The notes under the pieces: model-generated
Databases searched by the model: none
The model's input: the letters and a program-made list of their open reading frames with translations, nothing else
Told to the model about the DNA's origin: nothing
Translations under genes and position numbers: made by a program
Shown: in pieces, positions 17,895 to 30,579 of the stretch
How positions within the stretch are numbered: position 1 is the first letter of the stretch
Layout: each line of letters starts with the position of its first letter
Assembly (NCBI GenBank): GCA_030614785.1
Contig: JAUWTJ010000003.1
Location: 1-64,000, forward strand
Origin: Alphaproteobacteria bacterium
GTDB taxonomy: Bacteria > Pseudomonadota > Alphaproteobacteria > M2410
Direction of reading: 5' to 3'
DNA: 64,000 bases

Positions 17895-18416
17895 CTACTT
17901 TGAGGCGGCGTCTATCTGACCCGCCCGTCCGCTCATTTCGCCATTTTGCTCGGTAAAGGTCACTGGACCGAGGTCCGCTCCTGGCAGTCCCAGGCGGTCA
18001 CCGGGCAGCAGGACCCTTTCGCAGCGCGGGGCACACGAGTAGGAAAAGATACCGGGGCCCCGGACATAGGTCACACTTCCTGCGTTGGCAACTGATGTAA
18101 CGCGAACCCGTTTTGTGGCAATCGGCTTGCCGTCGCTGTCCAGCGCAATTATATTTGTCACACCATACATCCGACCAACGACAAGAATAATCTTGTCATT
18201 GTGTACTGAAACATCAGCGATAGACGGGTTGGTTACGGCCACTGTTGTAACCGGTTGATCCACAACGAAGACCTTTGACTCGTCTATTGGGACCTGAAGC
18301 TCGGACGCCCCGGCAGTGCCGGTTACTGACAAGATCAGTGCAAGTCCTAAAGTAACCATCGTGAGCAGGTGCCCGGGGACCGGCCCGGCAGTGCGATCTA
18401 CGTTATGGTGTCCCAT
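17895..18416 (-). CDS. Secreted pil_N-domain protein (Tad locus accessory)
   Basis: The 173-residue product has a signal peptide ending near TAGA/SEL (about residue 38). One pilus-assembly N-terminal (pil_N) domain follows, with VAVTNPSIADVSVHNDKI and VVGRMYGVTNIIALD. This is the same domain that begins the secretin CpaC in this locus (VMVSNPMIVEAVV, FSRQIGQANVFILD). The secretin part is absent. A tail with two close cysteines (SCAPRCE) could form a disulfide. The gene is divergent from the flp pilin gene across a 476-base region. A periplasmic role in secretin or pilus assembly is inferred from domain and location. ATG follows TTGGAG. Confidence 0.78.
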   Translation of the reverse strand: MGHHNVDRTAGPVPGHLLTMVTLGLALILSVTGTAGASELQVPIDESKVFVVDQPVTTVAVTNPSIADVSVHNDKIILVVGRMYGVTNIIALDSDGKPIATKRVRVTSVANAGSVTYVRGPGIFSYSCAPRCERVLLPGDRLGLPGADLGPVTFTEQNGEMSGRAGQIDAASK

Positions 18417-18610
18417 CTTCTTTTACTCCAACTCATTAAAGGCGCGAGGTCTTCCTCTTACGGAAGGATGCTAGCGAAAAAAAATGAATAAGCCCTAAAA
18501 GGGAGGGGGCGAATTTTCATGGTTTTATACTTGATTTATACTCTGCCACCATTTGCATGCAGACTCCGACAGTTTTCGACCGCGTCACAATTGTCAGTAA
18601 AATATTATAA

Positions 18611-18625
18611 TTAACGATGTCTTGA
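18611..18625 (+). promoter_or_regulatory. Near-consensus CtrA-like box
   Basis: TTAA (18611-18614), seven bases, TTGA (18622-18625): one mismatch from TTAA-N7-TTAA. It is 31 bases upstream of a perfect box, about three helical turns, so both would lie on the same face of the DNA. Confidence 0.45.
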
Positions 18626-18641
18626 AGGAAATCTACCATGG

Positions 18642-18656
18642 TTAATCAAGTCTTAA
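18642..18656 (+). promoter_or_regulatory. Perfect CtrA box upstream of the flp pilin gene
   Basis: TTAA (18642-18645), TCAAGTC, TTAA (18653-18656) is an exact match to the CtrA consensus TTAA-N7-TTAA. In Caulobacter the pilA promoter is CtrA-activated (established knowledge). Here the box lies in the A/T-rich region between the divergent pil_N gene and the pilin gene. Confidence 0.65.
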
Positions 18657-18892
18657 GGGCGATGTCATGGGAGTATAGAGTTCCAATAATCGAAGTATAG
18701 CTATGCGATTAATCTAATATAATTCTAATTAATATAGTATATATATGATTATAGAAATATAAACCATTATATTTTACCGTTTATTAATGAGGTGTCGGTA
18801 GTGTGACAGCCGTACGCGGTGGTCTGTCCATCCACAGGGGTAAGGCTTCGCGTCCATAGTGCTGTGTAGTAGATTGTAAGGAGTTCTAGAAC

Positions 18893-19051
18893 ATGACTTT
18901 TCTCAAAAATTTTCTGAATGATGAATCCGGTGCGACGGCTATTGAGTATGGCCTTATTGCTGCCGGCATTGCTGTTGCCATTATTACCGCTGTTGGTACT
19001 GTTGGTACGAAAGTTACCGCGACATTCACCAGCGTAGCCGCTGGTTTGTAA
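18893..19051 (+). CDS. pilA: Flp/Fap-type IVb pilin
   Basis: The 52-residue prepilin is the major subunit of the Tad pilus. A short leader (MTFLKNFLNDESG) is followed by ATAIEYGLIAAGIAVAII. Cleavage after G13 by the CpaA peptidase would leave the required glutamate at +5 (E18) and the Flp-type tyrosine at +6 (Y19), then the hydrophobic assembly helix. The C-terminus is short, rich in T, V and G. ATG follows AAGGAG at 18878-18883 after a long leader region with CtrA-like boxes. A strong terminator lies 34 bases downstream, separating it from cpaA and allowing high pilin expression. Confidence 0.95.
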   Translation: MTFLKNFLNDESGATAIEYGLIAAGIAVAIITAVGTVGTKVTATFTSVAAGL

Positions 19052-19324: not shown

Positions 19325-19825
19325 ATGGAATTACTTCCTGTACTGATTTTACCGTTGCTACTGGTCGTCGCCGCGATGAACGATATTGCGACAATGACAA
19401 TCCCGAACTGGATTTCGGGACTTCTCGTTGCGTCATTTTTGCCCTTGGGGTTTGCATTTGGAATGCCGATTGGTGATATCGCTGTGGCATTGGGTGTCGG
19501 GTTTGGGTTTCTTCTGGTCGGGATGGCGTGCTTTGCTCTGGGGTGGATCGGCGGCGGGGATGCCAAATTGATCGCGGCAACAGCCGTGTGGTTTGGTTGG
19601 CCAGCGTCATTGACCTTTATGTTCTGCACAATGTTGGCGGGTGGGGCGGCAACGCTGGTGCTGTTGCTTTTCCGTTTTATGCGGGTGCCAGACCCGGTTT
19701 TGTCCGTGCCGTGGGTTGGACGCCTGCACAGTACCAATGAAGCTCTGCCCTATGGCGTGGCGATTGCCGCCGGGGGGCTCATCGCGCTGCGGCAGTCTCC
19801 ACTCATCGATCTCATGGCCGGGTAG
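19325..19825 (+). CDS. cpaA: Prepilin peptidase (type IV, Tad system)
   Basis: The 166-residue inner-membrane aspartyl protease cleaves the Flp prepilin leader. The two catalytic aspartates are visible: AAMNDIATMTIPNW (near residue 20) and LGWIGGGDAKLIAA (near residue 79), the second in the family GxGD-type motif. About five or six membrane segments span the protein, and it lacks the N-terminal methylase domain of PilD, as usual for CpaA. ATG at 19325 has a GAGG about ten bases upstream. The 270 bases between the pilin terminator and this gene hold a degenerate CtrA-like element (19247-19261). Confidence 0.92.
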   Translation: MELLPVLILPLLLVVAAMNDIATMTIPNWISGLLVASFLPLGFAFGMPIGDIAVALGVGFGFLLVGMACFALGWIGGGDAKLIAATAVWFGWPASLTFMFCTMLAGGAATLVLLLFRFMRVPDPVLSVPWVGRLHSTNEALPYGVAIAAGGLIALRQSPLIDLMAG

Positions 19826-20031: not shown

Positions 20032-20826
20032 ATGAATCTCGCGCGTTTGATTGTAATGGGGATCGCGATACTGACAGCAGGGATGGCCGCATTTTTGGTC
20101 CGCTCAATGTCGACTTCGCAGGGACCGGCTAACGCCGCTCTGGAACCCCAGGTAGTCGTTGTTGATACAACAGGTGTTCTTGTCGCCTCACGTAACATCA
20201 GCGTGGGCGAAACCATGGTCGCCAATGATTTTCGCTGGCAGACATGGCCAAAGGAAGCGGTTCACGAAACCTATATTATCCAGGCCGCAGACACCGATGT
20301 CAGCAAGAACTGGGTCGGCGCCGTATTGCGCTCGCCGGTTGTTGTCGGTGAACCTTTGACGGGCCACAAGATGGTGCGCATTGGCGAGGGGGGGGTCATG
20401 GCTGCCATCATTCAACCGGGTATGCGCGGTGTTGGCGTCAAGATTTCAGCAGAGACCGGCGCGGGCGGGTTTATTCTTCCCAATGACCGGGTCGACGTTA
20501 TTACGACGTATAAATCCCGAGCCGGTGGTGAGCGCTCGGATAATTTTACCGGTGAAACCATCCTTCAGGATGTCAGGGTGCTTGCTATCGATCAAACCTT
20601 CCGGGAAGAAGACGGTCAACAGGTCGTCGTCGGGCGCACCGCGACGCTGGAACTTTCATCGGTGCAGTCTGAAGACCTTATTCTGGCTGCACAAATGGGT
20701 GAAGTCTCGCTCGTGCTGCGTAGCCTCGCCGGTGAAGGCGCAGGAGACGGGCATGTTGCCCTGAGCCGAAAATCCAAAAACCAGGTTGTCGTCGTTCGAA
20801 ACGGTCGAGTATCCGGAAGCCGATAA
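20032..20826 (+). CDS. cpaB: Flp pilus assembly protein CpaB (RcpC)
   Basis: The 264-residue protein has one N-terminal membrane anchor (residues 4-24) and a periplasmic SAF-type domain: VLVASRNISVGETMVANDFRW, in part, is the typical opening, followed by GVGVKISAETGAGGFILPNDRVDV. It works with the secretin CpaC at the outer membrane. The start is ATG after AAAGGG. It is separated from cpaA by 206 bases in which I see no gene, and its stop is 11 bases before the cpaC start, so cpaB to tadC look like one transcript. Confidence 0.9.
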   Translation: MNLARLIVMGIAILTAGMAAFLVRSMSTSQGPANAALEPQVVVVDTTGVLVASRNISVGETMVANDFRWQTWPKEAVHETYIIQAADTDVSKNWVGAVLRSPVVVGEPLTGHKMVRIGEGGVMAAIIQPGMRGVGVKISAETGAGGFILPNDRVDVITTYKSRAGGERSDNFTGETILQDVRVLAIDQTFREEDGQQVVVGRTATLELSSVQSEDLILAAQMGEVSLVLRSLAGEGAGDGHVALSRKSKNQVVVVRNGRVSGSR

Positions 20827-23019: not shown

Positions 23020-24444
23020 ATGGCCAAAAATGTAGATAACTCGGCACCAGTGGATGTTGATGTTGAAGACGTGTCAGAGCGCCGGGAACCTGCGCTTGAA
23101 TTGCCGAGTCTGGATGATATGCCGGTTCGATCGGAAGCGGTCCTGCCAGAAGCAGTTCTGGATGCCGAGTTTGATGACGTGTCCCGGCAAGCCCCTGTGG
23201 TGGAGGAACAGAGTTCTTCAGTGAAGGTGAATACACCGCTTCAGGATCGTCCTGTGCCGCGCATCAGCATTGAGGCGTTCTGCAAGTCGCCTGAGAACGG
23301 GTCGGTCATGCAGCAGGTTGCCAGTGATCGGCGGTTGTCCCGGGCGCATGTGACGGTTCACATGGGCGGCATTCAAGCTGCGGTGCAACACTTTTCTGTG
23401 ACACCAACACCCAATCTGATCCTCGTTGAAGCCACTCAGGACCATGATGCAATCTTCAAGGGTCTTGAAGAACTGGCCGCCGTCTGTGATGCCGGTACCA
23501 AAGTTATTGTTATTGGTCAGGTCAATGATATTATTCTGTACCGCGAGCTTATTCGTCAGGGCGTCAGTGAATATCTGGTCGGCCCCCTTACCGTCCCACA
23601 GGTTATTGATGCCGTATCGACGCTCTACGTCGATCCAGGTGCAACGCCGATCGGTCGTAGTCTGGTCTTTACCGGTGTCAAAGGGGGTGTCGGATCAAGT
23701 ACTTTGTCGCACAATGTGTCCTGGTGCATTGCGGAACGCATGCTGCATGATGTGACGCTCATCGATCTTGATCTTCCGTTTGGCACAGCTGGCCTCGACT
23801 TCAATGAAGACCCGGCTCAGGGTGTTGCCGATGCGCTGATTGCGCCGGAACGCCTTGATGATCAATTGCTTGATCGCCTGCTTGTCAAGTGTTCGGAACA
23901 TCTCAGTCTATTTACGTCGCCGGGTGTTCTTGACCGCGACTTTGAACTGGAGTCCGCGGCTTTTGAAAATGTTCTGGACAGAGTTCGCTCAACGGTGCCC
24001 TGCATGGTGGTTGATCTGCCGCATATCTGGGTGCCATGGACGCGGCACATCCTTTTGACCGCGGATGAGATTGTCATCACGGCAACGCCAGATCTCTCCA
24101 GTCTCAGAAACGCCAAAAATCTGGTCGACCTTTTGAAGCAATCCCGGACGTTTGACAATCCGCCGAAGCTGGTCCTGAACCAGACAGGTGTCGCCAAGCG
24201 GCCAGAGATATCCGAGAAGGAATTTGCCGAGGCTGTTGGTGTGCCTGTTGTGCTTTCGGTGCCGTTTGAGCCGCAGATGTTTGGAACAGCCGCCAATAAT
24301 GGCCAAATGGTTGCTGAGATGAAGCCTGACAGCAAGGTGACGCAAGGTTTGCTCAGCCTTGCCGGGTTGCTTACGCAGCGCGAACCGGTCGAGCAAAAAA
24401 CCTCTACGCTCCAGAAGTTTATGGCCCAGCTCAAGGGAAAGTAA
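23020..24444 (+). CDS. cpaE: Pilus assembly ATPase-like protein CpaE (TadZ)
   Basis: The 474-residue protein directs Tad machinery to a cell location, in Caulobacter the pole. It has an acidic, probably disordered N-terminus (about 1-75), an atypical receiver-like domain (about 100-200) and a MinD/ParA-like ATPase domain with the deviant Walker A FTGVKGGVGSSTLSHN (about residue 218) and DLDLPFGTAGLDF. The position where classical MinD proteins have GKT reads GSST, as in other TadZ members. ATG at 23020; 12 bases separate it from cpaF. Confidence 0.92.
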   Translation: MAKNVDNSAPVDVDVEDVSERREPALELPSLDDMPVRSEAVLPEAVLDAEFDDVSRQAPVVEEQSSSVKVNTPLQDRPVPRISIEAFCKSPENGSVMQQVASDRRLSRAHVTVHMGGIQAAVQHFSVTPTPNLILVEATQDHDAIFKGLEELAAVCDAGTKVIVIGQVNDIILYRELIRQGVSEYLVGPLTVPQVIDAVSTLYVDPGATPIGRSLVFTGVKGGVGSSTLSHNVSWCIAERMLHDVTLIDLDLPFGTAGLDFNEDPAQGVADALIAPERLDDQLLDRLLVKCSEHLSLFTSPGVLDRDFELESAAFENVLDRVRSTVPCMVVDLPHIWVPWTRHILLTADEIVITATPDLSSLRNAKNLVDLLKQSRTFDNPPKLVLNQTGVAKRPEISEKEFAEAVGVPVVLSVPFEPQMFGTAANNGQMVAEMKPDSKVTQGLLSLAGLLTQREPVEQKTSTLQKFMAQLKGK

Positions 24445-24456
24445 TTACGGGGATTT

Positions 24457-25917
24457 ATGTTCGGAAAACGTACGCCAGATGCTCCAGGGGGCGACCAGGC
24501 CCGATCGATTCGCAAGAAATCGGTCGAGGAGGATGCTGGCGTGCCTGCTGAGACCGAGGAGTTGGCACCGCCTATCCCGGCGCCCAAACCCTCTCTTGAG
24601 AAAGCCAAAACAACCGAGGATCCTTTCGTTGTTGAAGATCGCTCGGAAGAGTATTTTCAGGTCAAATCGACGATCTTCAATGCGTTGATCGACACGATTG
24701 ATCTGAGTCAGTTCGCCCAGTTGGATCAGGCCAGCGCGCGAGATGAAATTCGCGACATCGTTCAGGAAATCATTGCGATCAAGAACGTCGTCATGAGTAT
24801 CGCTGAGCAGGAAACCCTGCTGCAGGATATCTGCAACGATGTTCTTGGCTACGGGCCGCTTGAGCCTCTGCTTGCTCGCGACGATATCTCGGACATCATG
24901 GTCAATGGTGCCGGGCGCGTTTACATCGAAGTCAACGGCAAGATCCAGGTCACAAATGTTCGGTTCCGGGACAATGGTCAGTTGATGAATATTTGTCAGC
25001 GGATCGTTAGCCAGGTTGGTCGCCGGGTCGATGAGTCGAGCCCTATCTGCGATGCGCGCCTGCTTGACGGTTCTCGGGTCAACGTTATTTCCGGCCCGCT
25101 CGCAATTGACGGCCCAGCACTCACCATTCGGAAGTTCAAGAAAGACAAGCTCCAGATGCAGGATCTTGTGACCTTTGGCTCGATATCGCCTGAAGGTGCA
25201 ACGGTTCTCAATATTATTGGCGCGGTGCGTTGCAACGTCCTGATTTCCGGCGGTACCGGTTCAGGTAAAACAACGCTCTTGAACTGTATGACGGCCTTTA
25301 TCGACGAGGACGAGCGGATCATCACCTGTGAGGATGCGGCGGAGCTTCAGTTGCAGCAGCCCCATGTCGTGCGTCTCGAAACCCGCCCGGCCAATCTTGA
25401 AGGCTCCGGTGAAATTACCATGCGCGAACTGGTCAAGAACTGCCTTCGGATGCGCCCAGAGCGGATCATTGTTGGTGAAGTCCGGGGGCCTGAGGCCTTT
25501 GACCTTCTTCAGGCCATGAATACCGGTCATGACGGTTCGATGGGAACCCTGCACGCCAACTCGCCGCGTGAAGCTCTCAGTCGTCTTGAAAGCATGATTA
25601 CAATGGGCGGCTTCAATCTGCCGTCAAAGACCATTCGCGATATGATTTGCGGTTCGATTGATATTGTTGTTCAAGCAACGCGCCTGCGTGACGGGTCGCG
25701 GCGCATTACCCATGTTACCGAGGTTCTTGGAACCGAGGGCGATGTCATTATTACACAAGATCTGTTTATCTTTGAAATGGATGGCGAGGACGAAGATGGA
25801 AACGTCAAGGGTAGACACAAGTCGACCGGAATTGCGCGCCCGGCATTCTGGGATCGCGCACGGTATTATGGCCGCGAGGCTGAACTTGCCATGGCGCTTG
25901 ATGCGGCTGCCGACTAG
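24457..25917 (+). CDS. cpaF: Tad pilus secretion ATPase CpaF (TadA)
   Basis: The 486-residue hexameric ATPase powers pilus extension and, in this family, retraction. The Walker A is [14 protein letters not shown] (about residue 265). The aspartate and Walker B regions show [21 protein letters not shown] in part and [16 protein letters not shown], and the histidine box is [15 protein letters not shown]. An N-terminal CpaF-type helical region with [17 protein letters not shown] precedes. Length is normal. ATG follows ACGGGG. It lies between cpaE and the tadB/tadC platform genes. Confidence 0.95.
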
Positions 25918-30503: not shown

Positions 30504-30579
30504 AGGCCGTTAACCGGTTCTTCACCTCGTGGGCCTAGCCTGTCGAAACGGTTGCGAAACGTCTTTAGAGGGCCCTCCC

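Follow-up and report, generated by a model that had tools for sequence, protein, structure and literature searches.

The window, i.e., the whole 64-kb stretch of alphaproteobacterial DNA that was analysed, contains a short flp/pilA pilin gene with cpa/tad genes downstream (Table 1). An intergenic region of 476 bp (18417-18892, 38% GC) separates it from a gene that diverges from the pilin and whose short product has the N-terminal pilus domain of secretins as its sole domain. Relatives of this PF13629 protein were found near an Flp pilin in all six loci taken from named genomes. A sequence-only reading of this DNA had singled out two CtrA-like boxes in what it called an A/T-rich divergent region of about 480 bases, and had proposed that CtrA controls the pilin gene. 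Both boxes are indeed present where that reading placed them, 31 bp apart from start to start with a gap of 16 bp, and at -282 and -251 relative to the pilin ATG. A further box at 18773-18787, which the reading did not list, is found 120 bp 5' of the pilin ATG and deviates from the consensus at one position.

Table 1. Features of the pilin locus, in order along the window.
Feature	Position	Strand	Remarks
Divergent gene	17895-18416	-	pilus-formation N-terminal domain only (PF13629)
Distal box 1, TTAACGATGTCTTGA	18611-18625		TTAA-N7-TTGA, one mismatch; CtrA-like, proposed accessory site
Distal box 2, TTAATCAAGTCTTAA	18642-18656		TTAA-N7-TTAA, exact match; CtrA-like, proposed accessory site
A/T tract	18657-18772		separates the distal pair from Site 1; 116 bp, 74% AT, 24 TA steps; candidate MucR/H-NS-like silencer site
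Conserved CtrA box, TTTACCGTTTATTAA	18773-18787	+	Site-1 type, overlaps predicted -35; positional conservation
Predicted -10, TAGTGT	18799-18804	+	11 nt 3' of box 18773-18787
Ribosome-binding site AAGGAG	18878-18883	+	9 nt 5' of pilin ATG; read from sequence
flp/pilA pilin	18893-19051	+	52 aa, PF04964
cpaA prepilin peptidase	19325-19825	+	PF01478; first of the downstream cpa/tad genes
CpaB	20032-20826		3' of cpaA
Secretin CpaC	ends 22267		3' of cpaA
CpaE-like ATPase	23020-24444		3' of cpaA
CpaF	24457-25917		3' of cpaA

The presence of a ctrA gene was among the checks named beforehand. A protein 84% identical to Caulobacter CtrA over 227 aa is encoded in the genome (3.86 Mb, 99% complete) and scores 431 bits against the NCBIfam equivalog model NF045991 (cut-off, 350). 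SciP, GcrA, and MucR (165.5 bits) are encoded as well. With regard to control by GcrA/CcrM, a single GANTC was noted, at 18562.

Conservation of the third box was compared at the level of the family, using three other family genomes, none of them from the same genus. All three relatives carry a pilin box at nearly the same distance from the start codon (-118, -116, and -118), and exactly 11 nt after these boxes stand the hexamers TATAGT, TATAGT, and TACGTT, with TAGTGT at the corresponding place here. In all, four of four family members have a CtrA box followed at 11 nt by TAnnnT at -116 to -120, an arrangement that arises in the zone from -130 to -100 at a frequency of only 0.0005-0.0025 when each family upstream region is shuffled. 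Scored with a 32-position model built from 20 sites, all outside this genome, position 18773 comes second among the roughly 128,000 positions of the window. This ranking is not fully independent, since family relatives supplied three or four of the training sites. As promoters, the distal boxes at 18611 and 18642 rank tenth and fourteenth (the latter ninth on the minus strand). As a bare 15-mer, however, 18642-18656 nearly equals the box at 18773 (11.8 in its better orientation vs 12.4), so the case for 18773 rests on conservation and geometry. The CtrA-type promoter unit with the highest score in the window is located elsewhere, at 30510-30541, where TTAACCGGTTCTTCA is followed at 11 nt by TAGCCT, 70 bp before a gene for a regulator that looks to be of the MarR type.

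The same arrangement emerges from a class-wide set of 86 distinct alphaproteobacterial pilin upstream regions. Within -200 to -50, TTAA-N7-TTAA occurs exactly in 13 of the 86 and with up to one mismatch in 43, whereas 35 other arrangements of the half-sites reach at most 6 and 23 regions, respectively, and the corresponding maxima for spacers of other lengths are 2 and 25. Box starts in these regions peak at -60 to -79 and at -100 to -129. The only favoured offset between box and TAnnnT is 11 nt, seen in 16 of 80 boxes, any other offset accounting for five or fewer, and the full unit turns up repeatedly in Alphaproteobacteria, around -105 to -125. It is also present at -120 in a Hyphomicrobiales genome that lay outside the training set. 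At two further loci outside that set, those of a Caulobacter sp. and a Phenylobacterium sp., the pilin box has the form TTTAC-N6-TTAA (at -120 and -114, respectively) and TAnnnT is absent at 11 nt. Taken together, these results suggest that Flp pilins in Alphaproteobacteria, well beyond Caulobacter, are commonly driven by a CtrA box with TAnnnT 11 nt downstream, located around -105 to -125.

The unit also recurs within the genome itself, in which patterns were searched for alongside their reversed forms as a control. The exact or a one-mismatch form lies 5' of fliL, cheZ, a CheY-like receiver gene, a globin-coupled chemoreceptor gene (globin-MCP), and sciP, and a weaker form lies 5' of a flgB-like gene. 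Upstream of ctrA (G000:C1, locus L067), TTAAGGTTTGTTAA, a TTAA-N6-TTAA box, is found at -116 with TAGATT 11 nt further on. In this respect it resembles the N6 box reported for the P2 promoter of Caulobacter ctrA (PMC11264516), and the gene looks autoregulated. Genome-wide, the pattern gives a modest excess of matches (50 vs 38 for the control). Sites outside open reading frames are far more frequent than for the reversed pattern (25/30 vs 6/30), a contrast that is overstated because TTAA, which contains the stop codon TAA, is itself under-represented in coding sequence. The genome has a second and diverged flp pilin (G000:C10:4811-4951(-), L204), with no CtrA-type box upstream. Two other sites among the best CtrA-type promoters of the genome, both of the TTTACKCG... 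type (G000:C148:28177-28208(-) and G000:C20:12159-12190(-); L209 and L115), precede a pair of paralogous long proteins of 575 and at least 485 aa that begin MAK[KQ]IHYEV... and start 75-77 bp past the first base of their promoters. The one paralogue that was searched gave no Pfam or NCBIfam match.

With ctrA in the genome and a CtrA promoter conserved class-wide, control of the pilin gene by CtrA, as originally proposed, is strongly suggested and likely, but it would act through 18773-18787, and the two boxes to which it had been attributed are probably not the promoter. The most satisfactory explanation of the locus, and one that we hold with good confidence, is a CtrA-activated Tad/Cpa pilin promoter similar to that of Caulobacter pilA. 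Phosphorylated CtrA would bind the near-consensus box at 18773-18787, which overlaps the predicted -35, TAGTGT would serve as the -10, and transcription would start near 18811, as conservation and geometry suggest, which would give a leader of roughly 82 nt. A TTAA-N7-TTAA motif near -35 is likewise shared by the Caulobacter promoters that have the full CtrA motif (PMC4287350), and the box here would begin at about -38 relative to the predicted transcription start. The distance of 240 bases between boxes and pilin gene, which had been regarded as unusual, disappears as a puzzle owing to the promoter-type box at -120.

What, then, are the two distal boxes? Box 2 is the sole exact TTAA-N7-TTAA in the window. 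However, exact matches are not enriched in the genome as a whole (30 sites vs 51 for the reversed control), so the match alone means little. Retention of the boxes in relatives had been named beforehand as a check, and here the expectation failed: neither box is conserved in the three other family genomes, no counterpart of the pair exists in them, and one of them has a lone one-mismatch box at -329. Both boxes lack the TAnnnT at 11 nt. Nor do other pilin promoters show a preference for a 31-bp spacing between box pairs, the spacing from which the sequence-only reading had suggested two CtrA dimers on one face of the DNA; distances of 11-12 recur among them as a consequence of overlapping half-sites. 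We regard the two boxes as real but poorly conserved extras 5' of the driver site.

Such an arrangement has a precedent in Caulobacter pilA, where four CtrA sites have been footprinted and the one at -35 drives transcription (PMC11264516). There, the upstream sites raise the affinity for CtrA, lower the output, and delay expression by about 20 min, and the most distal site has little effect (PMC11264516). The existence of a second box is thus less unusual than had been thought, as extra upstream CtrA sites occur elsewhere. The two loci have in common a Tad pilin gene and a one-deviation CtrA box at the -35 (a predicted one here); the two near-consensus boxes upstream are candidate counterparts of the extra Caulobacter sites. 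In Caulobacter, Site 2 lies 31 bp upstream of Site 1 and Site 3 a further 3 bp away (both N6), with another 78 bp to Site 4, whereas the upstream boxes here are nearer the consensus, have N7 spacers, and start 116 bp from Site 1; in the family they are not conserved. By analogy, the pair may act as accessory CtrA sites, a reading we put forward tentatively and at somewhat less than even chances. From about 116 bp 5' of the driver, they would keep CtrA close to the promoter and modulate the level or timing of its activity.

The distal boxes might instead be a functionless chance product of A/T-rich DNA. Their absence from the three family relatives and the lack of a genome-wide excess of exact boxes are what one would expect in that case. 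However, among dinucleotide shuffles of the 476-bp region, at least one exact box appears in 3.7%, and just 0.8% contain an exact box that has a one-mismatch box no more than 40 bp away, so that the pair is mildly unlikely as a chance outcome. In addition, seven exact boxes fall in the zone from -205 to -420 of pilin genes, where the control averages 0.9 and never exceeds 5. Among the 16 pilin regions that carry the Site-1 unit, extra upstream boxes are not in excess. On balance, we consider a chance origin rather unlikely.

A role in the opposite direction is less probable still, and we think it improbable that the pair serves the divergent pilus-domain gene, with one region controlling both directions. 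The pair does lie 195-240 bp 5' of the ATG of that gene, box 1 is closely followed on the minus strand by TATAAT (18608-18603), and there is precedent for CtrA sites located between divergent genes (PMC6180460). However, the minus-strand hexamers 11 nt downstream of the boxes, TACTGA and TTCCTT, do not conform to TAnnnT, and in the three family relatives no minus-strand box has the 11-nt geometry. That the distal pair is itself the pilin promoter, with CtrA at 18642-18656 over the -35, TATAGA (18674-18679) as the -10, and a leader of about 207 nt, is highly improbable, since, despite the exact match of box 2 and a TATAGA 17 nt past it, this spacing is unfavoured (2 of 80 boxes), both boxes are missing in the family relatives, and a better promoter unit is found 130 bp further downstream.

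The A/T tract that separates the distal pair from the conserved box is a feature of this pilin locus that sets it apart from Caulobacter pilA. No 105-mers in the window are richer in TA steps than those within the tract (22 TA steps vs a mean of 2.4), and among 84 pilin upstream regions this tract has the most TA steps. For comparison, MucR sites in Brucella are 141-217 nt long with 74-83% AT and multiple TA steps (PMC10746212), and CtrA has been proposed to act there as a counter-silencer (PMC10746212, PMC12548446). The present locus has in common with those silencer/counter-silencer promoters a TA-step-rich A/T tract beside CtrA sites and a genome that encodes both mucR and ctrA; mucR together with such a tract is what a MucR-silenced promoter would be expected to show by sequence. 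However, the Brucella promoters belong to other genes, and at the pilin tract MucR binding is a conjecture from sequence. We consider it possible, if doubtful, that MucR binds the tract and adds a repression that CtrA would relieve. It is much less probable that CtrA at the distal pair and at the conserved box brackets the 116-bp silenced tract, so that the silencer is displaced or looped out, as a longer-distance variant of the upstream-site mechanism of Caulobacter.

What began as a guess about two boxes has thus become the prediction of a specific CtrA-controlled pilin promoter at 18773-18804. By the example of Caulobacter, it is reasonable to predict cell-cycle timing of the pilin; some symmetrically dividing alphaproteobacteria can do without CtrA (PMC7200025). 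In Caulobacter, pilus production affects sensitivity to pilus-binding phage, and the present locus lends itself to asking how the production of pili is tuned by CtrA sites further upstream.
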